Source: Actinomycetospora chibensis (GTDB taxonomy: Bacteria; Actinomycetota; Actinomycetes; Mycobacteriales; Pseudonocardiaceae). From it: 64,000 nucleotides of DNA. The DNA is taken from positions 372,001 through 436,000 of the forward strand of contig NZ_JAQZAM010000002.1 of assembly GCF_028737215.1 (NCBI RefSeq), written 5' to 3'. Both the position numbers and the translations under genes were made by a program. Under the pieces are notes generated by a model that was given only the letters and a program-made list of their open reading frames with translations, was not told the origin of the DNA and did not search any database. Below, piece by piece: positions 4,178 to 56,714 of the stretch; positions within the stretch are counted from its first letter, which is position 1, and each line of letters opens with the position of its first letter.

Positions 4178-5119
4178 TCACGTCGTCGAGCGGGCTTCAG
4201 GTGATGCGCAGGTAGATTCGTGGGCCACGTGCTCGGCTGCTTCCACCTGGAGCGTGCTGTGGTGCAGCGCGAACCGCTCCTCCAGCATGGCCGTGGCCGC
4301 GTCGAGCACGCCGTGCTCCCCGCAGTCGGCGGTCGCGCAACCGTCCTGACCGATCACCAGGTGCGCCGAGACGGCCGGGTTGCGGTCGTTGATGGCCCAG
4401 ACATGCAGGTCGTGCACCTCTTCGACGCCGGGGAGGGCGAGCAGCGTCGAGCGCACCTCCTCGACGTCGATCCCGGCCGGCGCGCCCTCGAGGAGCAAGT
4501 GCGACGCCTCGCGCAGCAGCGCCACCGTCCGCGGAACGAGGATCGCGACGATGACAAGCGACGCCACCGTGTCGGCGTAGACCCATCCGGTCGTCAACGT
4601 CACCGCGGCTGCGATCAGAACAGCGACCGAACCCAGCGCGTCGCCGAGGACGTGCAGCGCCGCGCCGCGAACGTTCATGTTCTCTGCGGCGCCGCGACTG
4701 AGCACCACCAGCGACACCAGGTTGCCGGCGAGCCCGATCGCACCGAAGACCAGCAGGCCCAGCCCCGGCACCGGGGTCGGGTCCCCGAGGCGCTCGAAGG
4801 CTTCGATCGCCACCCACACCGTGACCGCGAGAAGCGCAAGGGCGTTGAGCGCCGCGCCGAGCACCTCGGCCCGTCCGAGGCCGAACGTGCGCCGGGTGCT
4901 CGGCGGACGTTGAGCGAGCCGGGCGGCGACGACGGCCGCGACCAGGGCCGCGACGTCGGTCACCTGGTGCCCCAGGTCGGCGAGCAGGGCCAAGGACCCG
5001 GTGAGTACAGCACCGACAGCTCCGCTCACGAGCACCGCGGCGGTGATCGCGAGCGCGATCGTCAGCTTGCGGCTATCCGAGTCTCCGTGGCCGTGCCCAT
5101 GACCGTGTCCGTGCCCCAT
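4178..5119 (-). CDS. Cation diffusion facilitator (CzcD/ZitB-like metal exporter)
   Basis: A 313-residue inner-membrane metal/proton antiporter of the CDF family. It begins with a His-rich run (GHGHGHGHGHG), a likely metal-binding tail, followed by six helices. The metal-site motifs are visible: LADLGHQVTD in helix 2 and ALHVLGDALG in helix 5. The soluble C-terminal domain has VHDLHVWAI and ends in a Cys/His-containing tail. Expected substrates are Zn, Cd or Co. I prefer ATG 5119 over 5149 because the upstream codons coincide with a palindrome that looks like an operator; there is no clear Shine-Dalgarno, so the message may be leaderless. It lies downstream of the VKOR-ZIP fusion gene on the same strand. 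Confidence 0.9.
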   Translation of the reverse strand: MGHGHGHGHGHGDSDSRKLTIALAITAAVLVSGAVGAVLTGSLALLADLGHQVTDVAALVAAVVAARLAQRPPSTRRTFGLGRAEVLGAALNALALLAVTVWVAIEAFERLGDPTPVPGLGLLVFGAIGLAGNLVSLVVLSRGAAENMNVRGAALHVLGDALGSVAVLIAAAVTLTTGWVYADTVASLVIVAILVPRTVALLREASHLLLEGAPAGIDVEEVRSTLLALPGVEEVHDLHVWAINDRNPAVSAHLVIGQDGCATADCGEHGVLDAATAMLEERFALHHSTLQVEAAEHVAHESTCASPEARSTT

Positions 5120-5131
5120 GGCCAGGACGTT

Positions 5132-5151
5132 ACATGCATATATGCGCATGT
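5132..5151. promoter_or_regulatory. Candidate metal-regulator operator upstream of the CDF gene
   Basis: The 20 bp ACATGCATATATGCGCATGT is an imperfect palindrome with perfect ACATGC/GCATGT arms and an AT-rich centre, unusual in this GC-rich sequence. It lies just upstream of the CDF start. A related palindrome occurs at 8461-8481 in front of the ICMT-like gene. The shape is typical of ArsR/SmtB-type operators, but no binding protein is proven. Confidence 0.5.
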
Positions 5152-5187: not shown

Positions 5188-6762
5188 TCAGTGGCCGACG
5201 ATCGTGATCGCTCCGAGCGCGATAGCGGCGGCAACGGCGGCCCCGATGTGCCAGTTCCGGAGCTCGCCGGACCGGCGCTTGTCCCGCGCCATGCCGATGC
5301 CGACCATCGCGGTACGGAGCAGAACCCCCGCCACCAGCGCCAGCAGTATGGGCACGATCGTCTCCGGCAGCGGGCTCACCGACGCCATGATCACGCCGGC
5401 AACGGGCCCGAGGACGGCGATCACGAGCCACGGGACCATGCTCTGGCGTGCCTGCTTGAAAAGGGCAGCGAGGGCGAGACCTTCGCTGGCCGAGTGCACG
5501 AGCAGCGCGGCGATGACCGGCACCGAGGGGGTCAGCGCGAGCGTCGCTCCCTCGATCACGCGGTGGACGGTGAGCGCGGCTGCCGCCCCGACGCCACCGA
5601 GAGCGGCCGACGTGTCGGCACCGACGGGACGGTGGCGGCCGGTCGGCGGCCCGTGGTCCCCGTGCTCCTGGCTCGCCGGCTCGTCGTCATGTCCGTGGCC
5701 GCAGCCTCCGCGGGTGAACCAGGCCACGACGACGAAGCCCGCCACGAGCGCGAGGGCCGGCATCCAGAGCGGCGTGCCCGCCTCCTCGGAGTCGTGCCAC
5801 ACGTCCGGGACGATGTCGGTCAGCGCACTGACCAGCATCATCGCCGAAGCCAGCGAGAGCCACAGCCCCATGCGGCCCGAGTAGCGGTTGGCGAGCCAAG
5901 CCCCGAACACGGTCGCTGCGGAGATCAACGCGACGGCGCCGAAAGCGCCGCCTTCCACAGGGTCGCTCTCGTACCAGTCGCTGGTCAGGAAGACGATCGT
6001 CAGGACCGCGAGTGACCAACAGCCGACGACCCATCGGTGGTGCTCGACGAGGCCGCGGGCAGCGGCCGGCAGGGGGAGCCATGCCTCGGTGGAGGCGGTG
6101 ACGAGCGTGGACCAGAACAAGGGGATCGCGACGAGGCAGGCGGCGACGCAGTAGGCACACAGGGCGTCGGCGAAGAACAGGCTCTGGACGAGCGACCAGT
6201 GGGCGATCACCGTGCCGGTCGAGACCGCCGCGAGCAGCCCGACCCCGACCTGGCGCGACAACGTGAGACCGGCGGCGGCGATGGCACCGATGGCCGTGAC
6301 GGCAGCGAAGCCGGCGATCCCGATCAGTGCGACCAGATGGCCCCACGGACTCGCGGCGGCCGGTTCGCATACCGGCCCGGCTCCTACTCCGCACGGTGGC
6401 ACGAGGTCGAACACCACAGCGTTCTCCGCGGCGCGCACCACCGACACCAGCAGCCCGATAGCGCCGCCGATCAGCAGCAGCCACGCGAACCCTCGGCGGT
6501 CCTGAGCGGGATCGGCGGGCGCCGGAGGAGGTTCGGGCGCGGTGAGACTGCAGAGGTGACCGCTGGGGAAGGGCGCGGTCGCGACACTCGCGACCGCGTC
6601 GAGGAAACCGTGACCACCGTTCCCCCGCTGCCGGGGCAGCGGAGAGGTGAGTGCCTCGTCGGGCCGGTGGTCGAGGGGCGTCGGGCGTCCGCGCGGCTGG
6701 AGTGTGACGACGCCCGCGGGATCGGGCGGCCGAGGGGGCCGTTGCTGTTCCTGCACGTTCAT
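5188..6762 (-). CDS. VKOR-ZIP fusion: disulfide-forming domain joined to zinc permease
   Basis: A 524-residue membrane protein that seems to join two families. After about 85 Pro-rich residues comes a vitamin K epoxide reductase-like domain (about 90-215) with the loop cysteines PPCGVGAGPVC and the active-site pair LCAYC near residue 202. The C-terminal part is a ZIP-type permease with a His-rich loop (GHGHDDEPASQEHGDHG) and the metal motifs HRVIEG and HSASEG near residues 400 and 423. VKOR would oxidise thioredoxin-like partners; ZIP would move Zn or similar ions into the cytosol. ATG 6762 has a GAGAGG site 5 bases upstream. One frame is open throughout, with no sign of a sequencing join. 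Confidence 0.8.
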   Translation of the reverse strand: MNVQEQQRPPRPPDPAGVVTLQPRGRPTPLDHRPDEALTSPLPRQRGNGGHGFLDAVASVATAPFPSGHLCSLTAPEPPPAPADPAQDRRGFAWLLLIGGAIGLLVSVVRAAENAVVFDLVPPCGVGAGPVCEPAAASPWGHLVALIGIAGFAAVTAIGAIAAAGLTLSRQVGVGLLAAVSTGTVIAHWSLVQSLFFADALCAYCVAACLVAIPLFWSTLVTASTEAWLPLPAAARGLVEHHRWVVGCWSLAVLTIVFLTSDWYESDPVEGGAFGAVALISAATVFGAWLANRYSGRMGLWLSLASAMMLVSALTDIVPDVWHDSEEAGTPLWMPALALVAGFVVVAWFTRGGCGHGHDDEPASQEHGDHGPPTGRHRPVGADTSAALGGVGAAAALTVHRVIEGATLALTPSVPVIAALLVHSASEGLALAALFKQARQSMVPWLVIAVLGPVAGVIMASVSPLPETIVPILLALVAGVLLRTAMVGIGMARDKRRSGELRNWHIGAAVAAAIALGAITIVGH

Positions 6763-6896: not shown

Positions 6897-7472
6897 CTAG
6901 CCAGCGACGGCGAGCCGCGGTGGGCCCCGCCGGACGGCGTAGGCGACCCAGATCCGGGAGAGCGTCGCTCGCGCCGGGCTCGTGACAGGCGGCACCTCGG
7001 CGGTCGGGTACTCAGGCGCCTCGGCGATCAGTGACCGCAAGCAGCATGCGAGCCGATGGACGGCCGCGGCGCACGCCAGAAGGACGACGTCCACGGCCGC
7101 CACGAGAAAAACCATCCCGACGGCGACCGAGATATAGGCGACGAGCAAGCCGAGGTGTGCCGCGCTATGCCCGGGCGTCAGGTTCGCCGTCGAGCGGTCC
7201 CACACCTCGCCAGCAGCGTGCAGAGTCGGCTGCGCCAGGACCGTGGCACTGGCCAGGAACGCGGCGACACGATGCTCCTGCCCGAAGCGGTGGAGTCGGA
7301 GAAGCCCGACCACGAGCGACACGCTTCCGAGAGCGACAACGTGCCCGAGGCTCGCACCCCCGAGGCGATCGAGGAGGACAGAGGCGACCAAGGTGGCGGC
7401 GGCTGCGGCGACCGCCGGCCAGCGCGGACTGGAACAGGTCGGTGGGCGAGTTGTCCGCATCGCTGCGTCCAC
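6897..7472 (-). CDS. Integral membrane protein, unknown
   Basis: A 191-residue protein with four predicted membrane helices (near residues 20-35, 42-58, 68-85 and 108-135) and a soluble C-terminal tail. GTG 7472 is preceded by AGGAGG at ideal spacing. No family recognised. It lies upstream of the VKOR-ZIP gene in the same direction, with a 134-bp gap. A near-perfect palindrome lies upstream of it (7562-7581). Confidence 0.6.
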   Translation of the reverse strand: MDAAMRTTRPPTCSSPRWPAVAAAAATLVASVLLDRLGGASLGHVVALGSVSLVVGLLRLHRFGQEHRVAAFLASATVLAQPTLHAAGEVWDRSTANLTPGHSAAHLGLLVAYISVAVGMVFLVAAVDVVLLACAAAVHRLACCLRSLIAEAPEYPTAEVPPVTSPARATLSRIWVAYAVRRGPPRLAVAG

Positions 7473-9570: not shown

Positions 9571-10290
9571 GTGGCGAACAGGACTTCTCGGACACAAGCG
9601 GCCTCGACGCGCGCGATCGTCATCACCACGACGCTCGTCGTGCTGGTCGTCGCGGTCATCGTGTCCCTGGTCCACGCGAACCGCAGCGAGGAGCCCTCGC
9701 CGACGGCCGTCGCCGAGGACGGCGGCGCGACGCTCGGGGCTCCGGTGCCGGCTGCGCTACTGATCCGTCCTGACAGCCACCGTCTCGGGCAGCCCGCCGG
9801 CGACCGCGTCCGCTTCGTCGAGTTCCTCGACTTCGAGTGCGAGGCGTGTCGCGCGGCGTACCCGAGCGTGGAGCGTCTCCGGGCCGAATACGCCGGGCAG
9901 GTCGACTTCGTCGCCCGGTACTTCCCGCTTCCTGGGCATCGCAACGCTGAGCCCGCTGCCCTCGCGGTCGAGGCCGCGGCACGCCAGGGGCGGTATGAGC
10001 AGATGTATCAGACGATGTACGAGACGCAGTTGTCCTGGGGCGAGCAGCAGGTGTCGCAGGCGCCGACGTTCCGTGGTTTCGCCGAGCGTCTCGGGCTGGA
10101 CATGGCGGCCTACGACCGTGACGTCGCCGACCCAGCGGTCCGCGACCGCGTGCTGGCCGACCGCGACGATGGCATCAGCGTCGGTGTGCAGGGCACTCCG
10201 ACGATCTTCGTCAACGATCGGCCGGTAGAGGGCGATCGCTCGTACCCCGCCCTGAAGGCGGCGCTCGACCAGGCCCTCGCGGCGCCGTGA
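9571..10290 (+). CDS. DsbA-like thioredoxin-fold protein, membrane anchored
   Basis: A 239-residue protein with an N-terminal membrane anchor (about 16-35) and a DsbA/DSBA-type domain outside the membrane. The active site is CEAC near residue 90 (FLDFECEACRAAYP); the cis-Pro loop is GVQGTPTIF. It would oxidise or exchange disulfides in exported proteins. The downstream VKOR gene overlaps by 4 bases (GTGA at 10287-10290), so the pair forms the usual actinobacterial DsbA-VKOR relay. The GTG start has no clear ribosome site. Confidence 0.9.
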   Translation: MANRTSRTQAASTRAIVITTTLVVLVVAVIVSLVHANRSEEPSPTAVAEDGGATLGAPVPAALLIRPDSHRLGQPAGDRVRFVEFLDFECEACRAAYPSVERLRAEYAGQVDFVARYFPLPGHRNAEPAALAVEAAARQGRYEQMYQTMYETQLSWGEQQVSQAPTFRGFAERLGLDMAAYDRDVADPAVRDRVLADRDDGISVGVQGTPTIFVNDRPVEGDRSYPALKAALDQALAAP

Positions 10291-10910
10291 TCGTCGCCGA
10301 GGACGCGGCGGTACCGGCGTCCGCTCCCGTCTCCTCGTCACGAGGCACTGGGCCGGTGCTGCTCGTCGCCGGTCTCGCCGGCGCCGCGGCCGCCCTGGTG
10401 CTGCTCGTCGAGAAGATCGCGTTGCTGGCCAAGCCGGACTACGTGCCGAGCTGCAGCTTCGACGCCGTCCTGTCGTGCGGATCGATCATGCGAACCGCGC
10501 AGTCAGAGGTCCTGAGCTTCCCCAACCCGATCATCGGGCTCGCCACCTTCCCGGTGGTAGCCGCGGTGGGAGCTCTGCTGCTGGGGCGGACACCGATGCC
10601 GGCCTGGTGCTGGCTGGCACTGCAGGGCGGCGCCACGGCCGCCGTCGCCTTCGTGGGCTGGCTGATCACGCAGAGCGTCGCGGTGATCGGCGCGCTCTGC
10701 CCGTACTGCATGGTCGTCTGGGCGGCGACGATCGCCGTGTTCTGGTTCGTCACCGCCGAGAACCTGGATCGCGGCCACCTCGTGGCAGGCCCGCCAGGAC
10801 GGCTCATCGCCCGCCATCCAGGGGCGGCGACCGTGGCGTCCTCCGTCCTGGTGCTTGCCATCGTGGTCGCCTCGTTCCCCGCCTGGTTCGCGGGCGTGAT
10901 CGGCCTCTGA
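10287..10910 (+). CDS. Vitamin K epoxide reductase family protein
   Basis: A 207-residue membrane protein with four to five helices. The loop cysteines CSFDAVLSCGSIM near residues 55-63 and the active-site pair LCPYC near 138 identify VKOR. The FPNPIIGL segment is also typical. It reoxidises the DsbA-like partner encoded directly upstream and passes electrons to quinone in the membrane. Translation is coupled to dsbA by a GTGA overlap. A second VKOR domain lies 4 kb away in the VKOR-ZIP fusion. Confidence 0.92.
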   Translation: MIVAEDAAVPASAPVSSSRGTGPVLLVAGLAGAAAALVLLVEKIALLAKPDYVPSCSFDAVLSCGSIMRTAQSEVLSFPNPIIGLATFPVVAAVGALLLGRTPMPAWCWLALQGGATAAVAFVGWLITQSVAVIGALCPYCMVVWAATIAVFWFVTAENLDRGHLVAGPPGRLIARHPGAATVASSVLVLAIVVASFPAWFAGVIGL

Positions 10911-10914
10911 CCGG

Positions 10915-11307
10915 TCAGGAGTCGACCGCGGCCCGGTCCGACGCCGGCACCTCGCCGAGCACAGCGCCGACGAGCGCGCGACCGACCGGCGTGAGCCGGT
11001 ACATGACGAGCTTGCCGTCGCGGCGCGACGTCACCAGCCCGGCGGCACGCAGCACGCGGAGATGGTGGGAGGCGAGGTTCTGCGCCTGCCCGACGACCCA
11101 CGCCATGTCGCAGACGCACAGTTCGTCTCCGGTCAGCAGCGCCGCGCCGACCGCCAGCCGGGTGGGGTCGGCGAGCGCCTTCCCAAGCGTCGCCGCCGAG
11201 GTCAAGGCGTAGAGGTCCGGGAGGGACGTGCGGATGTCCTCGGCGTGCGGCAGGTCCAGGCACAGCAGGTCGCACTGATCGTCCGCCGGAAGCGCGCTCT
11301 CGCCCAC
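10915..11307 (-). CDS. ArsR/SmtB metal sensor (CadC/CmtR type)
   Basis: A 130-residue winged-helix repressor. The metal-binding helix shows ELCVCD (a Cys-x-Cys pair) before the DNA-binding helix LASHHLRVLRAAGLV. Additional cysteines near the N-terminus (DQCDLLCLD) match the CadC/CmtR arrangement for Cd/Pb. It is divergent from the P-type ATPase gene and most likely represses it; metal binding would release the DNA. GTG 11307 follows a -10-like TAGAGT by only 6 bases, so the message is probably leaderless. Confidence 0.9.
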   Translation of the reverse strand: MGESALPADDQCDLLCLDLPHAEDIRTSLPDLYALTSAATLGKALADPTRLAVGAALLTGDELCVCDMAWVVGQAQNLASHHLRVLRAAGLVTSRRDGKLVMYRLTPVGRALVGAVLGEVPASDRAAVDS

Positions 11308-11316: not shown

Positions 11317-11376
11317 CTAACGTTCGTTGGCGCGACCGGGCGAACCGTATCGACCTCACACATCAACGAACGTTAG
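11317..11376. promoter_or_regulatory. Paired operator between arsR-type gene and cadA
   Basis: CTAACGTTCGTTG at 11317-11329 and its exact reverse complement CAACGAACGTTAG at 11364-11376 are separated by 34 bp. One copy lies next to each divergent start. Each box contains TTAG that may form part of a -10 element. This is the expected layout for a CmtR/CadC-type repressor controlling both promoters. Confidence 0.75.
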
Positions 11377-11422
11377 GGTGACGCTCAGCGAGGTCCACAT
11401 CGAGCGGACGGAAGGAGCAGCC

Positions 11423-13606
11423 GTGTCCGACGCCTGCTGCGGACCCGACGAGGCAGAGAGGGCCGGTGAGGACGAGGGTCCTGCGCGGCTGTGGCAGGTC
11501 CGCGAGCTGCAGCTCTCGCTCGCCGCCGCCGTGCTGCTCGGCGCCGCATGGCTCCTTCAGCGCAGTGGCGTCGCCGACCTCGTAGTGACCGGACTCGAGC
11601 TGGTCGCCGCCGTCGTCGCCGGCTCGACGTTCGTGCCCGGCGCGCTGCGGAGCCTGCAACACGGCCGGATCGGTGTCGGCACGTTGATGACGATCGCAGC
11701 GATCGGCGCGGTCGCCCTCGGCCAGGTCGCCGAGGCCGCCCTGCTGGGCATCCTGTTCTCGGTCGCCGAGGGGCTGGAGCACTACGCGGTCACCCGCACC
11801 CGCCGAAGTCTGCGGGCCCTCCTCGGGCTGGTCCCGCCGACCGCGTCGGTACTGCGCGAGGGGCGGGAGGTGACGATCGCGCCCGACGATCTGGTCGTCG
11901 GCGACCTGCTCGTACTGCGCCCCGGCGAACGAGCGGCCACTGACGGCCGCATCCGCGCCGGCCGCACCAGCCTCGACACCTCGGCGATCACCGGTGAGTC
12001 GGTGCCCGTCGAGGCCGCACCCGGAGACGACGTCTTCGCCGGCACCATCAACGGCGGCGGCGCGGTCGAGGTCGAGGTGACGGCTGCAGCGTCCGACAGC
12101 TCGCTGGCTCGGATCGTGCACATCGTTGAGGAGGCTCAGGACCGCAAGGGCGCGGGCCAACGCCTCGCGGACCGGGTCGCCCGCCCGCTGGTCCCCGCGA
12201 TCGTGGTCCTGGCGGTGCTCGTCGGCGCCGTCGGCTCGATCCTCGGCGATCCGTTGCTCTGGCTCGAGCGAGCACTGGTCGTGCTGGTCGCGGCGTCGCC
12301 CTGCGCGCTCGCGATCTCCGTCCCGCTCACGGTCGTCGCCGCGATCGGTGCGTCGAGCCGCCACGGCGCCCTGGTGAAGGGCGGAGCCGCCCTCGAGGAG
12401 CTCGGGCGCATTCGGGCCGTGGCGCTGGACAAGACCGGCACCCTCACCCGCAACGAGCCCGAGGTCATCGACGTCATCGCCATCCCCGGCCACCGTCCGA
12501 GCGAGGTCCTCGCCGTCGCGGCCGCGCTCGAGGCGCGCAGTGAGCACCCCCTCGCACAGGCCGTCCTGAACGCTGCGGCGGACCCGCAGTGGGCGATCGA
12601 GAGCTCCCCTGCCGACGATGTCGCGGCGGTCGCGGGACACGGGCTGACCGGGAGCCGGGACGGTGTCGACCTCCGTCTCGGCAAGCCCGGGTGGGTTCCG
12701 GCCGGTGCGCTGGCACCCGACGTCGAGCGGCTGCAGGGCGAGGGCGCGACCGTCGTGCTCGTCGAGAGCGCCGGAACGTTGCTCGGCGCGGTCGCGGTTC
12801 GCGACGAGTTGCGCCCGGAGGCGCCCGAGGCGGTCCGCCGGCTCCACGACCTCGGTATCGAGGTCGCGATGCTCACCGGGGACAACGAGCGCACCGCGAA
12901 CGCGCTGGCCGAGGAGGTCGGGATCACCGCGGTGCACGCCGAGCTGCGACCCAAGGACAAGGCGGAGCTGCTGCCGCGCATCGCTGCCGACCGCCGGATC
13001 GCCATGGTCGGTGACGGCGTCAACGACGCTCCGGCTCTGGCCACCGCGGACGTCGGCATCGCCATGGGCGCCATGGGCACCGACGTCGCCATCGAGACAG
13101 CGGACGTCGCCCTCATGGGCGAGGACCTGCGCCACCTCCCTCAGACGCTCGCCCACGCACGGCGCGCACGGTGGATCATGCTGCAGAACGTCGGGCTCTC
13201 GCTGCTGATCATCGGCGCGCTCATCCCGCTCGCGGCATTCGGCGTCCTCGGCCTGGCCACGGTGGTCGTGATCCACGAGGCCGCAGAGGTCCTGGTGATC
13301 CTCAACGCGGTCCGAGCCGCCCGGACCCGCCCCCTGCCGGGCCTCAGCGCCGCGCCGATCAGCGCCGAGCGCCACCACTTGACCGTGGCTCCTGCGCCAG
13401 AACCCGAGGACCCGTGCTGCGGGCCGTCGACGACCTCCTCGACCCGACCGATCGAGGGAAGCAGCGTCGCACTCCCGCTCCAGGACACGCCGTCAGTCAG
13501 CGGGACCGACGGCGGCTGCCGAGACGGCTGTTCTTGCTGCGCTCCGGCGTCGCCCGCCGCCCCGGCCCACGCCGAGGCCACCAAGGGCTCCGAACCGTCG
13601 GCGTAG
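11423..13606 (+). CDS. cadA: Cd/Zn/Pb-transporting P1B-type ATPase
   Basis: About 727 residues. All P-type ATPase motifs are present: TGES near residue 190, the intramembrane SPC site near 292, the phosphorylation site DKTGTLT near 336, SEHP near 373 and GDGVNDAP near 530. SPC predicts Zn/Cd/Pb export. There is no N-terminal HMA fold; instead both ends carry Cys clusters (CCGP near residue 5; CCGP and CRDGCSCC in the tail), likely metal-binding. GTG 11423 is chosen because GAAGGAG precedes it; the longer frame from 11327 would cover the operator. Control is by the divergent CadC/CmtR-type repressor. Confidence 0.93.
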   Translation: MSDACCGPDEAERAGEDEGPARLWQVRELQLSLAAAVLLGAAWLLQRSGVADLVVTGLELVAAVVAGSTFVPGALRSLQHGRIGVGTLMTIAAIGAVALGQVAEAALLGILFSVAEGLEHYAVTRTRRSLRALLGLVPPTASVLREGREVTIAPDDLVVGDLLVLRPGERAATDGRIRAGRTSLDTSAITGESVPVEAAPGDDVFAGTINGGGAVEVEVTAAASDSSLARIVHIVEEAQDRKGAGQRLADRVARPLVPAIVVLAVLVGAVGSILGDPLLWLERALVVLVAASPCALAISVPLTVVAAIGASSRHGALVKGGAALEELGRIRAVALDKTGTLTRNEPEVIDVIAIPGHRPSEVLAVAAALEARSEHPLAQAVLNAAADPQWAIESSPADDVAAVAGHGLTGSRDGVDLRLGKPGWVPAGALAPDVERLQGEGATVVLVESAGTLLGAVAVRDELRPEAPEAVRRLHDLGIEVAMLTGDNERTANALAEEVGITAVHAELRPKDKAELLPRIAADRRIAMVGDGVNDAPALATADVGIAMGAMGTDVAIETADVALMGEDLRHLPQTLAHARRARWIMLQNVGLSLLIIGALIPLAAFGVLGLATVVVIHEAAEVLVILNAVRAARTRPLPGLSAAPISAERHHLTVAPAPEPEDPCCGPSTTSSTRPIEGSSVALPLQDTPSVSGTDGGCRDGCSCCAPASPAAPAHAEATKGSEPSA

Positions 13607-16342: not shown

Positions 16343-19300
16343 TCACGCTCCGACCTCGTCGAGGTCGTCGGCGCCCTCGGCGTCGGTGTCATCGACGGGC
16401 TCGTTCGAGTGGTCGGGCGTCTCGACCTCCTCGTCGCGGGCTCGCCAGTGCGTGAGCTGCTCCGCCCGGTGCTCGGCTTCCTCTCGTGCGTCGGCGTCCT
16501 CGCGAGCACGGATCTCGGCGAGAGCGCGGTTCGCCTTCTCGACGGCTGCTGATGTCTCGTCGGCGGTGGGAACGCGCACGTGGTCTTCGGCCACGGGGCT
16601 CGGCTCCGAGGCGACCACCTCACGGATGTCGGGCCCGCTCGACTCGACCTCGTGGCCCTCGTCGTCGTGGTTCTCAGTGGCGGGTTCCACTTCCACGTCT
16701 TCGTGCCGGTGAAGGTCGTTCGGGCGATCCGTGACGTCGTCCTCGGTGACCTCGCGGTGGGTCTCGTCGTCTGCGATCTCTGCTCGGTGCGCAGCGAGCC
16801 ACTCGGTCGCGGTGGTGCGTTGCTCCGGTTCGGCGTCATCGACGTGGCGGGCGGCAAGCTCGGCCTTGGCACGTTCGGCGGCGGCTCGGGTGCCGGCTGT
16901 GTGGGCCAGCCACCGGGATCGGGCCTCGTCGAGCTCGCTGAGCTCGGCGGCACGCGCTTCGAGAGCACCGGCGAGGGTCGCGGTCTGTTGGGCCTCGCCG
17001 TGGAGCCGGCTCCGGTGGTCGGGGGCTGTAGAGGCGTCGGCCTCAGCCCGCCGGAGCTGCGCGTCCTGCTGGGCGCGAGTGGCGGCTTGATGGGTGCCGG
17101 CGAGCTCATTGGCGACATAGCGGGGTGCCCAGGCGGCCTCGCGCTCGTGGGCCCGTACGCGCATTCGGAGCTGTCCGTCCGAGAGCTCGAGCTCTTCGCG
17201 GTCGATCTCCGGTCGGCCGAGGGCGCGCCAGGCCGCACGGTAGGAGGCGTAGGCCTCGACCTTGCCGGGGCCCGGCGCGGGACCGAGCGCGTCCTCGTCG
17301 GCGTCGTGGCCGCTGAGCTCGCGCCAGGCGGCGACGGACCTCGCTCGGTCCTGCCACTGGTCGCGCTCGGCGAGCGAGTCGGGAACGGGACCGAGAGCAT
17401 CGGTGAGCCACCGTGGCGGGGCCTCGGCGAGCTGTTCGCCCATCTCAGCGCTGCGTCGATCGGCAGCCTCGGCGAGCGAGGTGAGGTAGCGGTCCCAGTC
17501 GGCCCGGCCAGTGGCCGGGGTCCAGTCGGTCCAGGTGCGACCCTCGGGATCGAAGGTGTGGGCGTCGCGGATGCGGCCGTGAACGACGTTGGTGAGGTTG
17601 CGCGCGCCGGCGAGGGGTCGGTCGGCGACTGCTTCGCGCAGGATGCTCTCCGGGTCGTGGCCGGCGAGTTCGGCGCGACGCAGGATGCGTGTCAGTGAGG
17701 CGGCGCCGTCCTCGGCGGCGAGACGGGCGCGGTCGTGGCCGGTGATGGTGCCCTGGACGACCAGCTCGTCGAGCCAGCGCCCGGTGCGCTCGGTAGCGGC
17801 CAGGTGCGCGGCATCGCTGAAGAGCTCCCCAGCGGTGCGGGTGCTGCCGGAGTCCATGGCGGACTCGGTCGCCGTGGTGAGCGCAGACGCGGACTCCATG
17901 CCGTCGTCGCGGGTCACGATCCCGGCCATGACAGCGACCGGGTCGCGGTGCACGGAGTGGTCTGCGGGCGAGCCGTCGGCGGGATCGATGGGTCCGGAGA
18001 TGGTGGCGACGTGGGCGGTGTTGGACTGTCGACCACGAGTGAGCCCGACGTAGCTCGCGGCACGACTGGTTCCGGGTGCGGCGACGAGGTGGCTCGTGTC
18101 GACGGTGAGGCCCTGGGTCGCGTGGACGGTGCCGGCGTAGGCCAGCGTCACGTCGGCGGCGACGTAGTCGCGGGGCAGAACCATTGGGTCGCCGAGGACC
18201 TCAGCGCCCTCGGAGCCGCGTCCGTGGACGGAGGCGACGGTCAGCGAGCCGTCCTCGCCGACGGCGGTGACGCGGTAGGTCTCCCGGTTGATCGGCCCAC
18301 GTCGATTGCCCTCGTGCCCGGTGAGCTCCCAGCCGTTACGGCGAGTGGCGACGAGGTCGCCGACACCGGCGTGGTTGCCGTCCCGTCCGAGCGGGGTGCC
18401 GTGCTCCTCGACGTGTCCGAGGCGGACCAGTTCGGCGCGCAGCGCGCCGGCAAGCCGGTCGGCTTGCTCGTTGGTGTCGACCACGAGTACCGAGTGGCGC
18501 CCGGCCAGGGTGTCGGCGAGCCAGGCGCGGCTGGCGGAGGCCTCGGCGTCGTCGAGGGTGCCGGCGTCGACGAGTCGCCCATGGCGGTGATAGTCGCGCA
18601 GCACGGTGTCGTCGCCGTCGCGCAGGCGCAGAGACGCTGGCCCTTCCCAGTCCTCGCGGAAGCGGCGGGTCTCGGTGAGCTCATAGCGGGCCCCGGTGTG
18701 GGCGAGCAGGTCCATGGCGCCGCCGGCTCCGACGGCGGCGAGCTGGCGGTGGTCACCGACCAGGAGAAGCTTCGCGCCGGCGGCGTCCACGTGCCCGTAG
18801 ATCGCGGCCAGGGCCGTGGTGTCGGTCATCGCGGACTCGTCGACCACGACGAGGTCGCCCGCCTGCAGACGCCATGTCGAGGTGTCGTCGACCTGCGCGC
18901 CTTGCGCGAGACGGTCTTGGGTGTCGAGCCAGCGTTTGACATTGCGGGCATCGAGGCCTTCGTCGGCGAGGACTCCGGTGGCGATCTGGCTGGTGGCGAG
19001 CCCGAACACGCGGCCCGCGGCGGCGCCGCGGAGTTCAGGATCGGACCAGGCTCTGGCGAGGGTGCCGACGACGAAGCTCTTGCCGGTCCCGGCGGGTCCG
19101 ACGAGGGTCTCGATTCGCGCGCCTGAGGTGAGGACGCCACGGACAGCGGCGGCCTGATCCACGCCGAGCTCGCGACCGGACTCCCGGAGCCCACCGAGGA
19201 ACCGGTCCGCGATCGCAGCCGGCGTCGCGGCGGCGTCCCCGCGGCGGGCGGCGGCGGTCATCGCGCGTTCGGTGTGGACGTGATCGGGGGTGGCATAGAG

Positions 19301-20773
19301 CTTCGCGCCGGGAGCGTCGTAGGCCGAGCGGCCGTTCGCCAGACGGAGCTCATCGGGCAGGGCATCGTCACCGGGGCGCGCGGCATCGAGCGGGGTCGAG
19401 AGCGCGAGCCCCTCGTCGGTGAGCCAGTCCAGCAGGCCGGCGACGTCGCCGCCGTCGGTCAGTCCGAGGGTGTCGGGCAGAGCGTCGTTGATCGCGCGGG
19501 TGAGGTCGGCGCGCGTCCAGGCGGCTTTGCGGGTCTGGACATCGGCCAGCGCGGTCTCGAGGACCTCCTTCGGTGACCACTCGCCTGCCGCAGGAGGGTC
19601 CTGGTCGCGGGCGTTCAGGGCGTCAGCGGCGACGGCGCCCAGCCCCCCGGCGACCTCGCCGCGCAGCTGGGCGTCGACACGGTCGAGGAACTGGCTGCGT
19701 GTCTCTCCGTCGTGGGACTTCGCCTGGCGGGTCGCCATGGTGGCCTGCCGCGAGAGTCGGTCGCGCTCGAGGCCGTTGGCTTCCCGATCATGGTGCGCTT
19801 CGAAGTCGCCGATCAGCTCCGCGGCCTTCTCGGTGACCGCGCGGCGCCGCGAGGAGAACAGGTCGGTGACCGTGTCGTCGATACCCACGACCTCGCGGGC
19901 CTTGCCGTCCGGGCGCATCGCCAGCCGCAGCCCGAGCGCTCGGGCGAGGTGCTCCTCGGTGGTGCGCTCGCCCACCGCGGCCGCGGCGGGCCGGAACTTG
20001 TGGATCGCCCGCGAGTCGAGGGTGCGCCACTCGTCGTCCTCGTCACCGGGGGCGCGGTTGAGGATCGGATTGTGGATGTGCAGCTGCGGGTCGTGGTCGC
20101 GGGAGTCGTGCTGGAAGAACGACGCCACGACCCAGCCGTGCGCGTCGACCCACCGTCCGGCGGCGCCGCCGTGGTGCCCGACGCGGGCGTAGCCGGCCTT
20201 GTCCTGCAGGTACGTGAGAGCAGCGTTGTTGCCCGCCCAGATGGCGTCCTCGACGGCTTGGCGGTACTCGCCCCACGCCGCGGCGGCCTCGTCGTCGCCG
20301 GCGGCGTGGGCCTTGACCTCCTCGGCCTCGAACGCGGTGTGCAGCACGGTGACGCTCTTCTGAACGCTGAACGTGGCGTCGAGGAAGGCAACGTTGTGGC
20401 GGGCCTGCTTGCCCGCCTCGACCTGTAGTTCAGCGCGGCGTTCAGCGCTGGCGTCGGGCTCTCGTTCAAGCGCGGCGGCGTACAACTCATCCTCGCCGGC
20501 GTAGCGCCGTCCGGTATGACCGAGGGTCGGGACCTCGTCCCACCGCTCCGGGGCAGAGAAGCCGTCGTGCCGTGGGTCGAGGAAGCGTTCGTAGATCCCG
20601 CGCATGTCCTGGGCATCGACGAGCCCGCTCAGACCGAGCTTCTCCGCGCCGGCGCCCCACCAGCGTCCGGGCGGCTCGCCGTCGGTGACCGCGCCGGTGT
20701 AGTAGGACTCGCGGCCGGTCGCGACTTCGTTGAGCAGGTAGTCCGGGGAGTAGCCGGACGAGACGCTCAGCAT
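16343..20773 (-). CDS. traA: MobF relaxase-helicase (TraA/TrwC type)
   Basis: About 1476 residues. The N-terminal TrwC relaxase domain starts MLSVSSGYSPDYLLNEVATG; Tyr24/25 (ESYYTGA) are the candidate nicking tyrosines, and the HUH metal site is DPQLHIHN near residue 234. A RecD-like helicase follows with Walker A GPAGTGKS near 560 and Walker B VVVDESAM near 643. A long helical C-terminus ends in an acidic tail containing EQLTHW. It would nick oriT, stay bound to the 5' end and unwind the transferred strand. ATG 20773 is chosen by family N-terminus; the upstream ribosome site is weak. It is the last gene of the transfer operon. Confidence 0.93.
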   Translation of the reverse strand: MLSVSSGYSPDYLLNEVATGRESYYTGAVTDGEPPGRWWGAGAEKLGLSGLVDAQDMRGIYERFLDPRHDGFSAPERWDEVPTLGHTGRRYAGEDELYAAALEREPDASAERRAELQVEAGKQARHNVAFLDATFSVQKSVTVLHTAFEAEEVKAHAAGDDEAAAAWGEYRQAVEDAIWAGNNAALTYLQDKAGYARVGHHGGAAGRWVDAHGWVVASFFQHDSRDHDPQLHIHNPILNRAPGDEDDEWRTLDSRAIHKFRPAAAAVGERTTEEHLARALGLRLAMRPDGKAREVVGIDDTVTDLFSSRRRAVTEKAAELIGDFEAHHDREANGLERDRLSRQATMATRQAKSHDGETRSQFLDRVDAQLRGEVAGGLGAVAADALNARDQDPPAAGEWSPKEVLETALADVQTRKAAWTRADLTRAINDALPDTLGLTDGGDVAGLLDWLTDEGLALSTPLDAARPGDDALPDELRLANGRSAYDAPGAKLYATPDHVHTERAMTAAARRGDAAATPAAIADRFLGGLRESGRELGVDQAAAVRGVLTSGARIETLVGPAGTGKSFVVGTLARAWSDPELRGAAAGRVFGLATSQIATGVLADEGLDARNVKRWLDTQDRLAQGAQVDDTSTWRLQAGDLVVVDESAMTDTTALAAIYGHVDAAGAKLLLVGDHRQLAAVGAGGAMDLLAHTGARYELTETRRFREDWEGPASLRLRDGDDTVLRDYHRHGRLVDAGTLDDAEASASRAWLADTLAGRHSVLVVDTNEQADRLAGALRAELVRLGHVEEHGTPLGRDGNHAGVGDLVATRRNGWELTGHEGNRRGPINRETYRVTAVGEDGSLTVASVHGRGSEGAEVLGDPMVLPRDYVAADVTLAYAGTVHATQGLTVDTSHLVAAPGTSRAASYVGLTRGRQSNTAHVATISGPIDPADGSPADHSVHRDPVAVMAGIVTRDDGMESASALTTATESAMDSGSTRTAGELFSDAAHLAATERTGRWLDELVVQGTITGHDRARLAAEDGAASLTRILRRAELAGHDPESILREAVADRPLAGARNLTNVVHGRIRDAHTFDPEGRTWTDWTPATGRADWDRYLTSLAEAADRRSAEMGEQLAEAPPRWLTDALGPVPDSLAERDQWQDRARSVAAWRELSGHDADEDALGPAPGPGKVEAYASYRAAWRALGRPEIDREELELSDGQLRMRVRAHEREAAWAPRYVANELAGTHQAATRAQQDAQLRRAEADASTAPDHRSRLHGEAQQTATLAGALEARAAELSELDEARSRWLAHTAGTRAAAERAKAELAARHVDDAEPEQRTTATEWLAAHRAEIADDETHREVTEDDVTDRPNDLHRHEDVEVEPATENHDDEGHEVESSGPDIREVVASEPSPVAEDHVRVPTADETSAAVEKANRALAEIRAREDADAREEAEHRAEQLTHWRARDEEVETPDHSNEPVDDTDAEGADDLDEVGA

Positions 20774-21066
20774 TCGGACGACCCATTGAAGATCGACAGT
20801 CGCCTTGCAGCGCGCCGCATGACGGCTTGCGTCGATGTCGGCCGGCCGAAGGCCGGCCACCACCCTCGGATCGTGATGCCTAGGTGTGCGTCTTCTGATC
20901 TTTCCCTTGATCTTTTCGTCCCGGTGTCTTGTTGGTCGTGTCTGGTCGTCTGTTCGGCGTAGTGATCGGTGTCGGGAAGTGGTCGTGCTCTTGGTTCTTG
21001 CTCTTGTCCTTGTCGTTGGTCGTGGTCGGTGCTGCTGGTTGTGGTGATCGGCGCTTCGATGGTCAC
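20767..21066 (-). CDS. Possible small coupled gene upstream of the relaxase
   Basis: A 99-residue frame starts at GTG 21066, overlapping the stop of the DUF2637 gene (GTGA), and ends inside the relaxase start (ATGCTGA). Both ends therefore look translationally coupled. The predicted protein is hydrophilic and rich in Gln, Asp, Arg and Thr. Its codon use is unlike its neighbours (many A-ending codons), and the stretch also looks like an oriT. It may be a coupled leader, a real small protein or a non-coding transfer origin. Confidence 0.35.
   Translation of the reverse strand: MTIEAPITTTSSTDHDQRQGQEQEPRARPLPDTDHYAEQTTRHDQQDTGTKRSRERSEDAHLGITIRGWWPAFGRPTSTQAVMRRAARRLSIFNGSSEC
20774..21062. other. 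Candidate oriT region with inverted repeat
   Basis: Directly upstream of the relaxase gene. It contains a perfect hairpin, GGCCGGCC-GAA-GGCCGGCC (20840-20858). From about 20880 to 21055 follows a stretch that is poor in A and rich in T and G on the plus strand, with short GGTCGT/GTTGGTCGTG-type repeats, clearly different from the surrounding base composition. Transfer origins often lie beside their relaxase gene and combine a hairpin with a skewed, lower-GC stretch. The nic site cannot be placed by eye. Confidence 0.4.
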
Positions 21067-23016: not shown

Positions 23017-23732
23017 CGATCCCACCCCGGCTCGCCGTCGCCCTGCGTCTCTTGCTGCATGTTCGAGGCGGCACCCGTGGCGCTGTGGTCGTCGTCGTTC
23101 CAGCGGGCCAGCTGCTCGCGCCGTTGCTCGCTGTCGATCTCGCCCTCGGCGCTCGCCTCGCGGACGGCGATCGCGAGGCGCAGGTCCTCGATGCGCTGAC
23201 GCAGTCGGTCGGGGCCATTCGGGTGCGCGGTGTCGTGCGTCTTGGCCGGGTCGCACGTCCCGGCCGCCCAGGTACCGGTCGAGGACCACCGACGTCCCTG
23301 GGTGTCGGTGAACGGCCCGCGATCATCGCCCTCAGGGGAATCGAGGGCGGCCTCGTCGGCGAGGTCGTCGAGGGCGTCCTGCTCAGGCGGCGGGGCGAGC
23401 TCGGCGAGGGCCTCGAGCCGCCGGTACTCCGCCCACGCGTGCGGGTCGTGGTCGTGGGCCCAATCGGAATGGACGGCCCGCTCGCGGGCTGCGTCGAGGG
23501 CATCGTCGACCTCGGTGGTCGGCGGCCGCGACCAGCCCGGGGCGGGCAAGGTGTTCTCCTCGAGCCATGCGGTACGCGCCGTGGCTTCCGCGTCCGAGGC
23601 CGGCTCGCGCCAGTCCGGGTCGCCGTACTCCGCGGCCGGGTTGAATCGCGAGGTCTCGTCAGGACGGCTGTTCAGGTAGGCCACGTGCTCCGTACCGGTC
23701 CATAGGCCCTTCGTCGGGTCCGGCGTGGTCAT
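23013..23732 (-). CDS. Hypothetical transfer-operon protein with EQLARW tail motif
   Basis: A 239-residue acidic soluble protein. It begins with a conserved-looking segment (TEHVAYLNSRPDETSRFNPA) and ends with EQRREQLARWNDDD, a motif shared with the protein at 21935-22291 and echoed in the relaxase. ATG 23732 makes a 4-base overlap with the traD stop, so I prefer it over the ATG at 23741. No family recognised. Confidence 0.6.
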   Translation of the reverse strand: MTTPDPTKGLWTGTEHVAYLNSRPDETSRFNPAAEYGDPDWREPASDAEATARTAWLEENTLPAPGWSRPPTTEVDDALDAARERAVHSDWAHDHDPHAWAEYRRLEALAELAPPPEQDALDDLADEAALDSPEGDDRGPFTDTQGRRWSSTGTWAAGTCDPAKTHDTAHPNGPDRLRQRIEDLRLAIAVREASAEGEIDSEQRREQLARWNDDDHSATGAASNMQQETQGDGEPGWDR

Positions 23733-25633: not shown

Positions 25634-25989
25634 GACGGCCCCCCGCTCTCGCCGGGCTGTGGGTCCACAGGCACGCCTGAGCCGGCGTGTGCGAGCCAAT
25701 AGCCGCCGCCAGAGCGGGCGAGCTGGAACTGCGTTCCCTCCCCCGTCATGCGCTTCGCCCACACCTGGGCGGCCTCGTCGGTCATCGCCTCGTCGGTGCG
25801 TCCGACCAGCGCCGCGTCGACGAACAGGGCCCACGTGATCGGCCCACCGCACGGCGCATCCCCCAACACGAGACCGAGGACCGGGGCCGCGACATCCGCG
25901 CGGACCAGCTCGACCCCCAGCAGCAGCGGCCGCGTCGTCTGTGCCGGCTCACCGACTCGTGCACTCGGCGCCGGCCTGCGACTAGGCAT
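25630..25989 (-). CDS. Hypothetical transfer-operon protein
   Basis: A 119-residue protein with no clear membrane segment; the middle is moderately hydrophobic (VLGLVLGDAPCGGPITWALF). It starts at ATG 25989, overlapping the end of the upstream gene by 8 bp, and ends in the traD start. No family recognised. The tight overlaps on both sides support a real gene. Confidence 0.6.
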   Translation of the reverse strand: MPSRRPAPSARVGEPAQTTRPLLLGVELVRADVAAPVLGLVLGDAPCGGPITWALFVDAALVGRTDEAMTDEAAQVWAKRMTGEGTQFQLARSGGGYWLAHAGSGVPVDPQPGESGGPS

Positions 25990-35752: not shown

Positions 35753-36403
35753 TCAGCAGCTCTCACCGCGCCACGTGCGGGTGCCGGTGTGGACCGCGAC
35801 CGCGGCCAGGATCAACGCCGCCATCGGGTCGGCCCACCAGACGCCGAAGGCGACGTTGAGGAACAACCCGGAGAGGATGGTGGCCGACAGGCCCGCACAG
35901 ATCAGGTGCTGTGCTCCTTCCCCGGCCGTCGCCGCCGACTCGGCCAGCACTCCGAGGCGCCGCTTGGCCCGCCCGAACAGCGGCATCAGCACGATCCCGA
36001 CCGCCGCCAGCGCCACGCCGACCCAACTCCCCTCAGAAGGTGTGCCGGCGAGCAGCTGGGAGAGCGCCGCCACGATGAGGTAGGGCGCGAGCAGGAAGAA
36101 GCTCGTCGCCACGATCTTCTGGGCCTGCTGCTCGGCCGCGGCCGAGCCGATGCGCCGCCCGGTGAAGCGCCAGACGATCACGCCGCTGCCCAGACTCTGC
36201 ACGGCGCTGTCCAGCCCGTAGCCCAACAGAGCGATCGAGCCGGTCGAGAGGCCCGCGATGATCGCGACGACACCCTCGACCGCCAGCCACACCAAGCTCG
36301 CCCACGACACCCGCCGGATGCGTGACGCGAGCGCCGTCAGGCGCGCTTCCGACACTGGAGGAACAGCCACGCTCCCGACGGTAGCGGGTTCTTCCGCTGG
36401 CAT
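35753..36403 (-). CDS. Short CDF-like cation transporter
   Basis: A 216-residue membrane protein with five to six helices. It resembles the membrane part of cation diffusion facilitators (GYGLDSAVQSLGSG with the metal Asp; EGAQHLICAGLSAT) but lacks the soluble C-terminal domain and has Gln/His changes in the second metal motif. It may carry Co, Zn or Cd, or have changed function. It is divergent from the ArsR gene at 36436, its likely regulator. Confidence 0.75.
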   Translation of the reverse strand: MPAEEPATVGSVAVPPVSEARLTALASRIRRVSWASLVWLAVEGVVAIIAGLSTGSIALLGYGLDSAVQSLGSGVIVWRFTGRRIGSAAAEQQAQKIVATSFFLLAPYLIVAALSQLLAGTPSEGSWVGVALAAVGIVLMPLFGRAKRRLGVLAESAATAGEGAQHLICAGLSATILSGLFLNVAFGVWWADPMAALILAAVAVHTGTRTWRGESC

Positions 36404-36435
36404 CCAGAAATCCCGATGCCACTAGGCTGGGGGGC

Positions 36436-36762: not shown

Positions 36763-36796
36763 CCTCGACCGCCGCGCCGGGCGCGCGAGCCCCGAC

Positions 36797-39050: not shown

Positions 39051-39061
39051 ACGTCTACCTT

Positions 39062-39116: not shown

Positions 39117-39138
39117 AGATGACACTAGGAGGCACCTC

Positions 39139-41973: not shown

Positions 41974-43485
41974 TCACGCCTGCGGAGGGAGCACACTGGG
42001 TCGCCGGCCACGACTCACCTCGACGAGACCCCAAACCTGCAACAGAGTCACGGCTCGCTGAGCAGTCGCAGTCGAGACGCCGAAGTCGATGCCGAGCTGC
42101 TTCCCTGTCGGTAGCTGAGCGCCGACTGGCCACTCGCCGGAACCGATGCGGTCGCGCAGAGTCACGGCTATGCGCTCGAACGGGTACCGCGGATCCGTCT
42201 TCGCGCGCTCGACGTCGTCGATCTCTGGGGGCGCCGGGCGCTCGGGCAGACGGTCGGCCAGTCCCTGCGCTGCCCGTTGGTCAGCCTCCGCCACCCATGC
42301 CGCGTAGACGCGAAGTGTCGTCGTGCCTCCGCCGCCGTGGCCGAGCCGGCCGGCGACCGTGCGGACGTCGACACCACCCGCGATGAGCTCGGTCGCCGAG
42401 TAGTGCCGGAGGTTGTGGAGGTGGGTGTCGATGCCAAGCCGGTCGGCCATCTTGCTGTACCGCTGGGTCACCGAGGACGGCGTCAGGTGCGTCGCTCCAG
42501 TCGGCGACGCCGAGAAGACGAACGCATCCGGTGACAGCTCGACCTCGAGAGCCGCGCAGCGCTCCTCCCACCGGCGGCGATGTTCGGCGAGGGCTTCGAC
42601 GGTGCCGGGGTCGATGGTGACGTGGCGGCGCTGATGGGTCTTGGTGTCCTTCTCCTCGGTCTCGCTCCGGATCTCAGCGATCGCGCGCCGAATCGTGATC
42701 ACGCCTCGCTCGAGGTCGACGTACCGCCAACGCAGCCCGCAAACTTCTCCTCGGCGAACGCCGGTGACCATCAGAAGCCAGACGACCATCCCCCAGTCGG
42801 GGTCGCGGCGCCCCGCCTCGGCGACGAGCCGCGCGGCTTCCTCGGGTGTCGGCGGCTGCGGGTCGGGTGCGGGCACCGGCGGGGGCTCGGCCTGGTCCAT
42901 CGGGCTCGAGCCCACCCACCGCCACCGCACCGCGCGCTTGTAGGCGCCGCTCAGGATGTAGTGAATCTTGCGGATCGTCGCGGCCCCGAGCGACCGGCAC
43001 CGATGCGGTCGACACCGAACATCGCACTCGTGAGGGTGGGTCGTGCGGTGATCGACTCCTCGACGGTCGCGGCAGTGCTCCCGGCACCGCCGCATCTCGG
43101 CGTAGAGCGAGTCCAGGATCTCGGCGTCGATCGCGCCAACCTTCGATGTACCGATGAACGGGCGGACATGCTTGTCGACGTACTCCCGGTAGCCCTCCAC
43201 CGTGCGCCGACCGCCGGTGTGCTGGTCGAGGTAGCGGTCGAGCAGCTGGTTGACGGTGGCGGTCGTCCGCGGGTTGCGCCTCTTGCGGATGTCGGCGAGG
43301 AAGCCGATACGGACCTCTTCGGCACGCTCCCATGCCTTGGGTCCGGCCGGAACCGTCTCGACGAGGCTGTGCCGTCGCTTCGTGACGGGGTCCTGGCCGG
43401 CGTAGACGCGCACCCGCAGCGCTCCACTCGGGAGCAGCTCGATGTTGCCCTTATCGCGCGAGGGAGGGCGCACGGCCTTCGCCAT
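41974..43485 (-). CDS. Tyrosine integrase fused to a GntR-type winged helix
   Basis: About 503 residues. An N-terminal AP2-like/SAM-like arm-binding part is followed by a catalytic domain with Arg in VTGVRRGEVCGLRW (near 244), HNLRHYSA (His-x-x-Arg near 357), GRLGHGG (His near 380) and RVYA (Tyr near 394). An insertion near 130-165 is rich in Cys/His (CREHCRDRRGVDHRTTHPHE). After the catalytic end a GntR-like winged helix (about 435-500) appears: GEWPVGAQLPTGKQLGIDFG. It integrates the element at the neighbouring tRNA-Ala. ATG 43485 has no strong ribosome site. Confidence 0.92.
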   Translation of the reverse strand: MAKAVRPPSRDKGNIELLPSGALRVRVYAGQDPVTKRRHSLVETVPAGPKAWERAEEVRIGFLADIRKRRNPRTTATVNQLLDRYLDQHTGGRRTVEGYREYVDKHVRPFIGTSKVGAIDAEILDSLYAEMRRCREHCRDRRGVDHRTTHPHECDVRCRPHRCRSLGAATIRKIHYILSGAYKRAVRWRWVGSSPMDQAEPPPVPAPDPQPPTPEEAARLVAEAGRRDPDWGMVVWLLMVTGVRRGEVCGLRWRYVDLERGVITIRRAIAEIRSETEEKDTKTHQRRHVTIDPGTVEALAEHRRRWEERCAALEVELSPDAFVFSASPTGATHLTPSSVTQRYSKMADRLGIDTHLHNLRHYSATELIAGGVDVRTVAGRLGHGGGGTTTLRVYAAWVAEADQRAAQGLADRLPERPAPPEIDDVERAKTDPRYPFERIAVTLRDRIGSGEWPVGAQLPTGKQLGIDFGVSTATAQRAVTLLQVWGLVEVSRGRRPSVLPPQA

Positions 43486-43578
43486 GAGCAGAGAAGGTAG
43501 GCCAGCTCGTGCCACGAACCGTGCCACGAGCGAGGAAGTTACCCGGTTCGGACCAACGTCTGTGCTGGTCACGGTGGG

Positions 43579-43651
43579 TGGAGACGAAGGGAATCGAACC
43601 CTCAACCCCCGCCTTGCAAAGGCGGTGCTCTGCCAATTGAGCTACGTCCCC
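43579..43651 (-). tRNA. tRNA-Ala (TGC)
   Basis: A 73-nt cloverleaf with acceptor GGGGACG/CGTCTCC, D-loop AGCTCAATTGGCAGAGC, anticodon TGC and T-arm GGTTCGATTCC. The G3-U70 pair that marks alanine tRNA is present. CCA is not encoded. The 3' end faces the integrase gene and is the likely attachment site. Confidence 0.97.
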
Positions 43652-48308: not shown

Positions 48309-50816
<2,508 letters not shown>

Positions 50817-52557: not shown

Positions 52558-52572
52558 GAGCCTCGACCTCGA

Positions 52573-54705
<2,133 letters not shown>

Positions 54706-56704: not shown

Positions 56705-56714
56705 GGCCCGGCCG

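Follow-up and report, generated by a model that had tools for sequence, protein, structure and literature searches.

A single uninterrupted reading frame of Actinomycetospora chibensis encodes one chain in which a five-helix VKOR-type domain is followed by an eight-helix ZIP domain, and the fusion is real. The gene lies in a stretch of 64,000 nucleotides (contig NZ_JAQZAM010000002.1, positions 372,001 to 436,000), which we call the window and whose features are listed in Table 1. The account that we favour, with considerable reservation, is that of a fusion of single origin carried on a metal-resistance element, in which a VKOR-derived thiol module would sit at the outer mouth of a single-site ZIP importer and play an accessory role. 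VKOR domains are known as fusions to thioredoxin-like partners; a VKOR joined to a metal permease would put the fold to another use, tying envelope thiol chemistry to metal uptake. The component families are known, the combination and its residue pattern are new to us, and a search of the open-access literature, outside which most subscription journals fall, found no paper on a VKOR-ZIP fusion.

Table 1. Features of the fusion gene, its neighbours and the mobile element (window coordinates)
Feature	Position	Strand	Basis or remark
VKOR-ZIP fusion gene, 524 aa, 13 predicted TM helices	5188..6762	-	Frame reading, Pfam, structure model, topology count
N-terminal tail, residues 1-84, predicted cytoplasmic, low model confidence	6511..6762	-	Partial conservation in A. 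soli (ATAPFPSGHLC)
VKOR-type domain, residues 85-262, TM1-TM5	5977..6510	-	Pfam PF07884 at residues 94-219; top Foldseek matches are solved VKORs, with weak E-values
Loop cysteines C124-x7-C132	6367..6393	-	Alignment
C202-A-Y-C205-V-A-A-C209, CXXC with Cys at +4	6136..6159	-	Trp at +4 in stand-alone VKORs
ZIP domain, residues 263-524, TM1-TM8	5191..5976	-	Pfam Zip, hhalign, Foldseek
His-rich loop, about residues 355-388, link between ZIP TM3 and TM4, predicted cytoplasmic	5599..5700	-	Topology count
ZIP TM4 motif HRVIEG, residues 400-405; M1 ligands H400 and E404; Arg401 at M2 position N178	5548..5565	-	Alignment
ZIP TM5 motif HSASEG, residues 423-428; M1 ligands H423 and E427; Ser424 at M2 position D208	5479..5496	-	Alignment
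CDF cation exporter, 38 bases downstream of the fusion, same strand	4178..5149	-	Pfam Cation_efflux (2.6e-38), ZT_dimer; TIGR01297
DsbA-like thioredoxin-fold protein	9571..10290	+	Pfam Thioredoxin_4, DSBA
Separate canonical VKOR (CPYC...W, FPN), 4-base overlap with the DsbA-like gene	10287..10910	+	Pfam, alignment
ArsR/SmtB-type metalloregulator	10915..11307	-	NF033788, 83.5 bits (cut-off 55); Pfam HTH_5
P-type ATPase	11327..13606	+	Pfam E1-E2_ATPase, Hydrolase
TrwC relaxase	16343-20863
T4SS coupling protein	23729-25852
Tyrosine integrase beside tRNA-Ala	41974..43605	-	Pfam Phage_integrase (1.1e-19)
Right attachment repeat, 45-base perfect copy of the 3' part of tRNA-Ala	43577..43621	.	Partner about 86 kb away to the left, near 329622 of the same contig (C22)
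tRNA-Ala	43577-43651

One chain with two membrane domains

The frame runs from ATG to TGA without interruption, and, as an earlier note on this DNA had claimed, it holds two domains together with their named motifs, namely the VKOR cysteines (PPCGVGAGPVC at residues 122-132 and LCAYC at residues 201-205), the two ZIP metal motifs and a His-rich loop. The VKOR match reached an E-value of 1.5e-13 and 51.5 bits (cut-off 27.5). The Zip match to the whole protein, in two stretches, had an E-value of 8.2e-8 and 32.3 bits, slightly below the curated cut-off of 35.1; in a scan of the organism's own genome, with neighbours in frame, it scored 40.4 bits, above the cut-off, and was the sole Zip match at an E-value of 0.001 or better. 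Of eight members scanned from the group of ZIPs to which this half belongs, two pass the cut-off, the proteins of Streptomyces sp. CG 926 (L034, 43.7 bits) and Actinacidiphila soli (L035, 37.5 bits), and six, both other fusions (22.5 and 34.3 bits) among them, fall under it with scores between 20.7 and 34.3 bits and E-values no worse than 2.8e-4. The fusion of Actinomycetospora soli (A. soli) covers positions 7-290 of the 323 in the Zip profile and scores 39.1 bits against the VKOR profile, while that of Pseudonocardia eucalypti (P. eucalypti) scores 52.7 bits on the VKOR profile, of whose 134 positions it covers only 58-132. When a profile built from 14 rows of the ZIP group was aligned by hhalign with 11 ordinary ZIPs of actinobacteria, the probability was 99.5% (E 1.6e-22, 202 columns). 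NCBIfam gave no match to the fusion at an E-value of 1 or better.

The full-length structure model contains 13 long helices, five in the VKOR half and eight in the ZIP half, plus short ones (mean pLDDT 47.0), and a model of the ZIP half alone contains eight (mean pLDDT 46.1). Foldseek placed solved VKORs at ranks 1-10 for the full-length model (best E 0.05), with no ZIP among the 50 rows listed, and BbZIP at ranks 1-7 for the ZIP half (best E 0.015), all best matches having E-values above 0.001. Structure prediction, which the earlier note had named as a check, thus ranks the expected folds first, but at low confidence and with weak E-values. Ordinary ZIPs match BbZIP in a sequence search of solved structures; the same search returned only presumed chance matches (urease gamma, a polyprotein chain) for the close ZIP profiles and none for the VKOR half alone.

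With the N-terminus set inside and the tails excluded, Lys and Arg were distributed 15:1 between inner and outer loops in the window's protein, 18:2 in A. soli and 21:4 in P. eucalypti, and acidic residues did not discriminate (10:12, 10:12 and 10:10, respectively). By this positive-inside count, VKOR TM5 would end outside, where a ZIP begins. Both termini of a ZIP are outside, and the eight helices and outside termini typical of the family are found here in models of low confidence with which the positive-inside count agrees; the predicted 13-helix topology fits these data. Like the fusions of VKOR to thioredoxin in Synechococcus and plants, in which the attached domain is on the outer side, the protein carries its second domain C-terminal to the VKOR helices; unlike in those fusions, that domain is an eight-helix metal permease and no redox partner.

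The VKOR half

In actinobacteria, VKORs possess a fifth helix and lack a thioredoxin domain (PMC4555120). Like MtVKOR, the enzyme of M. tuberculosis, the fused half has five helices, the CXXC motif, a PF07884 match over the cut-off and, in Actinomycetospora, the C-x7-C loop cysteines, whereas it differs from MtVKOR by the ZIP after TM5, by Cys in place of Trp at the fourth position after CXXC (CXXC+4), by the absence of FPN and, in P. eucalypti, by that of both loop cysteines. The residue at CXXC+4 is Trp in all 45 stand-alone actinobacterial VKORs checked and Cys in all four fusions (CAYCVAAC, CAYCVAAC, CAYCVLAC and CTYCLIAC), so that a fusion-specific C-x2-C-x3-C is kept throughout. Fifteen stand-alone VKORs aligned with the fusions all have C-x7-C, FPN and the Trp. 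Among 200 genomes searched from the order, 91 had a match, and the best-scoring 30 that were read, a sample hence biased to the canonical type, have C-x7-C and Trp in 30/30 and FPN in 29/30. FPN occurs in none of the four fusions; where it would stand, the P. eucalypti protein has Asn-Pro.

De novo disulfide formation requires the residue at CXXC+4, which stabilises a quinone intermediate, and the MtVKOR changes W146Y, W146R and W146F did not complement, W146R also being less expressed, while changes of N81, the Asn of FPN, left the enzyme functional (PMC11208910). We therefore regard the change at +4 as the stronger evidence and the loss of the FPN Asn as the weaker. Across VKORs this position is less conserved and is often taken by Ala, Trp or Tyr, and in human VKOR hydrophobic replacements are tolerated at it; Cys is not among the tested changes in the part of that paper available to us (PMC11208910). 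The Trp on which MtVKOR relies is present in no fusion, and judged by these residues the passing of electrons to quinone by the VKOR half no longer looks possible.

The label of disulfide oxidase given in the earlier note accordingly finds no support in the form given, and we consider it doubtful. If it held, both halves would be active, a disulfide-generating VKOR and a zinc permease in one chain, the former perhaps oxidising the neighbouring DsbA-like protein. The four canonical cysteines, with the spacings C-x7-C and CXXC, in all three Actinomycetospora fusions, the co-occurrence of a DsbA-like gene and the activity of the N81 variants (PMC11208910) would suit such an enzyme. We nevertheless find it improbable, given Cys at the position where MtVKOR requires Trp (PMC11208910), the P. 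eucalypti protein without loop cysteines and the canonical VKOR that the window's island already has, overlapping the DsbA-like gene.

The ZIP half

In BbZIP, site M1 is formed by M99, H177, E181, Q207 and E211 and site M2 by N178, D208 and E240, M1 being the primary transport site (PMC9873690). Mapping through an alignment with ordinary ZIPs shows M1 to be kept in the fusion (M309, H400, E404, H423 and E427, in the same order) and the three M2 ligands to be replaced by R401, S424 and G488, the last lying just beyond the end of the hhalign alignment and placed by gapless extension. The fusion thus shares with BbZIP and ordinary ZIPs eight helices, the M1 ligands M/H/E/H(Q)/E and a best structural match, with weak E-values, to BbZIP itself, and departs from BbZIP in having Arg, Ser and Gly at M2 and an N-terminal VKOR domain. 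Among 14 rows of the ZIP group, H400, R401 and E404 are invariant, H423 and E427 are found in 12 and Met309 in 6. We read the ZIP half best as a metal permease with a single transport site, M1 without M2; the import direction would be that expected from the family, and the metal, too, is presumed.

With all three M2 ligands replaced, an Arg at N178 in 14/14 rows, the TM5 residues of M1 also changed in two of those rows (L037 and L056) and the gene placed among exporters, the ZIP half might instead be no importer at all, serving as a metal sensor or as an export-direction partner of the CDF protein. M1, the primary transport site in BbZIP (PMC9873690), is fully kept in the fusions, and we think such a role quite unlikely.

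The fusion also draws attention to a small ZIP group in actinobacterial metal islands. A divergent set with HRxxEG in TM4 and without M2 ligands occurs in Streptomyces (L037 5926-6732, L036, L052, L056 and L057), several members lying on large plasmids. The stand-alone HRxxEG ZIPs of Streptomycetaceae fall in the same ZIP clade as the fusion, share its TM4 motif and have an adjacent CDF gene in the three closest cases (L034, L035 and L037); unlike the fusion, they have no VKOR domain, and L037 and L056 have lost the TM5 His and Glu.

Distribution and origin

The earlier note proposed a search for the same fusion in other genomes, and it does recur, in the same domain order, in A. soli (L032), in A. 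lemnae (L033, with a broken frame) and in P. eucalypti (L031, genome G333). What did not follow is a wide spread: with the window the total is four, all in Pseudonocardiaceae, one of them with a broken frame. Fifty-eight of 100 relatives searched had a match, of which only A. soli (G016, 73% identity) was full length and A. lemnae (G008, 91-92%, in two pieces) was split; the remaining listed matches were nearly all to the VKOR part, and one (G083) was to the ZIP part. A search of genome contigs gave five loci, those of A. soli, A. lemnae, P. eucalypti, Streptomyces sp. CG 926 and Actinacidiphila soli.

The ZIP half alone matched 11 of 390 genomes of the family, namely the four fusions and seven weak matches (E 4.6e-7 to 9.6e-4). 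It matched eight of 396 genomes of the phylum, the seven others at 1.8e-12 or weaker, 61 of 246 of the class, the others at 3.7e-22 or weaker (match scores only), and at least 188 of 297 Streptomycetaceae. From the last, 30 loci were fetched, and no VKOR profile match was seen in their frames of at least 100 amino acids (E limit 1e-6). A wider occurrence of the fusion was thus not found in the family, phylum, class or Streptomycetaceae searches, and a viral collection held no match to the ZIP half.

Stand-alone ZIPs of 280 and 281 amino acids are encoded in Streptomyces sp. CG 926, where a separate VKOR gene is present in the locus, and in Actinacidiphila soli, and six more relatives with 35-43% identity were found on Streptomyces plasmids. 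The one in Streptomyces sp. CdTB01 (WP_058928774.1) is stand-alone, annotated as a hypothetical protein and flanked by a CDF gene and a DivIVA-domain gene, 3.4 kb from an ArsR-type regulator; the group is called hypothetical protein in all three plasmid records that are annotated there.

All four fused VKORs form one clade with support of 100/99 in a tree of 19 rows, in which the fragmentary P. eucalypti row (L012) was exchanged for the full stretch from L031 and identical rows were kept once, and the three complete ZIPs of the fusions likewise make up a single clade (support 97/100, tree of 21 rows). As the fused domains are one clade in each tree, a single fusion event is the simplest reading.

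Ratios of dN to dS were calculated by the Nei-Gojobori method with our own script, using the window sequence as reference and treating tail, VKOR and ZIP parts separately. Against A. lemnae they were 0.165 for the tail, 0.166 for the VKOR part and 0.089 and 0.122 for the ZIP part before (65 codons) and after (196 codons) the break. Synonymous change was high in the other two comparisons and the values are rough: against A. soli 0.20 overall (tail 0.213, VKOR 0.298, ZIP 0.127), and against P. eucalypti 0.708 for the tail (43 codons), 0.674 for VKOR and 0.234 for ZIP. Both halves are under purifying selection, the VKOR half being less constrained.

The A. lemnae gene is 88% identical in DNA to that of the window over its whole length, and a deletion of net 5 bases between ZIP TM2 and TM3 disrupts its frame (L033, near 6200-6290); either the fusion is dispensable in that species or the assembly is wrong. 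That copy could be taken as a sign that two genes were joined by sequencing or assembly error. The break lies inside the ZIP half, away from the domain junction, however, and the frame is unbroken in three separate assemblies, those of the window genome, A. soli and P. eucalypti. We give an artefact practically no weight, since recurrence at 73% identity in A. soli and the dN/dS values speak against an artefact or a chance frame.

The same data bear on what the VKOR half contributes. It may be a decaying structural passenger that anchors the ZIP or helps to insert it, with cysteines that have no part in transport. ZIPs closely related to the fused one are encoded by separate genes in Streptomycetaceae, the catalytic features of the VKOR have eroded differently from species to species, and its dN/dS exceeds that of the ZIP part in the pairs compared, all of which favour such a passenger. 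Against it, the VKOR part still shows ratios of 0.17 and 0.30 toward the two congeners, and C-x2-C-x3-C is kept in all four fusions. Possible but doubtful in itself, this explanation is almost as likely as a thiol module, and a fully active oxidase is less so.

A possible role

We tentatively prefer the thiol module. The cysteines of the VKOR half, including C-x2-C-x3-C, would lie at the predicted outer face near the mouth of the ZIP, where they could bind metal as it enters or alternate between the thiol and disulfide states; metal import might thereby be fed or throttled and balanced against the exporters encoded alongside. An importer within a metal-export island could serve to refill zinc lost via the exporters. 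Redox gating and delivery of metal to thiols, the two roles that the earlier note had suggested, are both possible. A more specific proposal, that a VKOR oxidase was turned into a thiol sensor or a metal relay at the outer face, directly controlling a single-site ZIP and giving a redox- or metal-gated importer spread by a mobile element, we consider rather unlikely.

Several findings speak against a thiol module. Of the two parts, VKOR is the faster evolving, and its ratio of 0.67 toward P. eucalypti would equally fit a decaying passenger; the broken A. lemnae copy, if correctly assembled, indicates dispensability there. The position taken by the new Cys is variable across VKORs, and a Cys is absent from the tested changes in the portion of the MtVKOR study that we could consult (PMC11208910). 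The residue pattern, Cys at CXXC+4 and Arg at M2, makes the idea testable by a few point changes.

The metal island and its mobile element

The earlier note placed the fusion beside a CDF zinc exporter and near a DsbA/VKOR pair, and the neighbourhood is as described: the CDF gene follows directly, and the DsbA-like/VKOR pair, the ArsR-type regulator and the P-type ATPase lie 3 to 7 kb away. We take the ATPase to be of the heavy-metal type from its position and its SPC motif. A CDF gene adjoins the ZIP or the fusion in all seven of the closest loci read (the window, L031, L032, L033, L034, L035 and L037), being divergent in L031 and separated by a possible ORF of 76 amino acids in L035, and is absent next to the ZIP in two more distant, annotated plasmid loci (L050 and L051), three further ones carrying no annotation. 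The A. soli fusion has an ATPase gene and an ArsR-type gene nearby.

Of 18 Actinomycetospora genomes, 17 have a core CDF at 71-74% identity, and G013, which is 59% complete, has weak matches only. A second CDF (85 and 93%) and the island DsbA-like protein (64 and 94%) are found only in the three fusion holders (G000, G008 and G016); three of the 15 genomes without them are less than 90% complete, and the absence is less sure there.

In Streptomyces sp. CG 926, the gene order is DsbA-like, VKOR, AhpC/TSA-redoxin type (thioredoxin fold), DsbD-type (membrane protein), ArsR-type, SCO1/SenC, DivIVA, ZIP, CDF, ArsR-type and P-type ATPase; in this metal island (L034 1148-10673), envelope thiol chemistry and metal resistance are paired for a second time. 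A membrane-like protein of 191 amino acids without a Pfam match at E 0.01 is encoded at window positions 6897-7472 on the minus strand and adjoins the A. lemnae fusion as well (L004 2621-3196).

The 45-base repeats of tRNA-Ala, the integrase and, between the repeats, the TrwC relaxase and the T4SS coupling protein together show that the fusion is cargo of an integrative element of about 86 kb, which is probably conjugative. The element carries a second metal or metalloid cluster at window positions 35753-39140, with a CDF-family gene, two ArsR-type regulators and an SBF-family permease (PF01758) that is presumably an arsenite exporter. It adjoins a region of chromosomal replication genes, window positions 48309-56746 encoding DNA gyrase A and B, a RecF/SMC-type gene and a tRNA-Ile.
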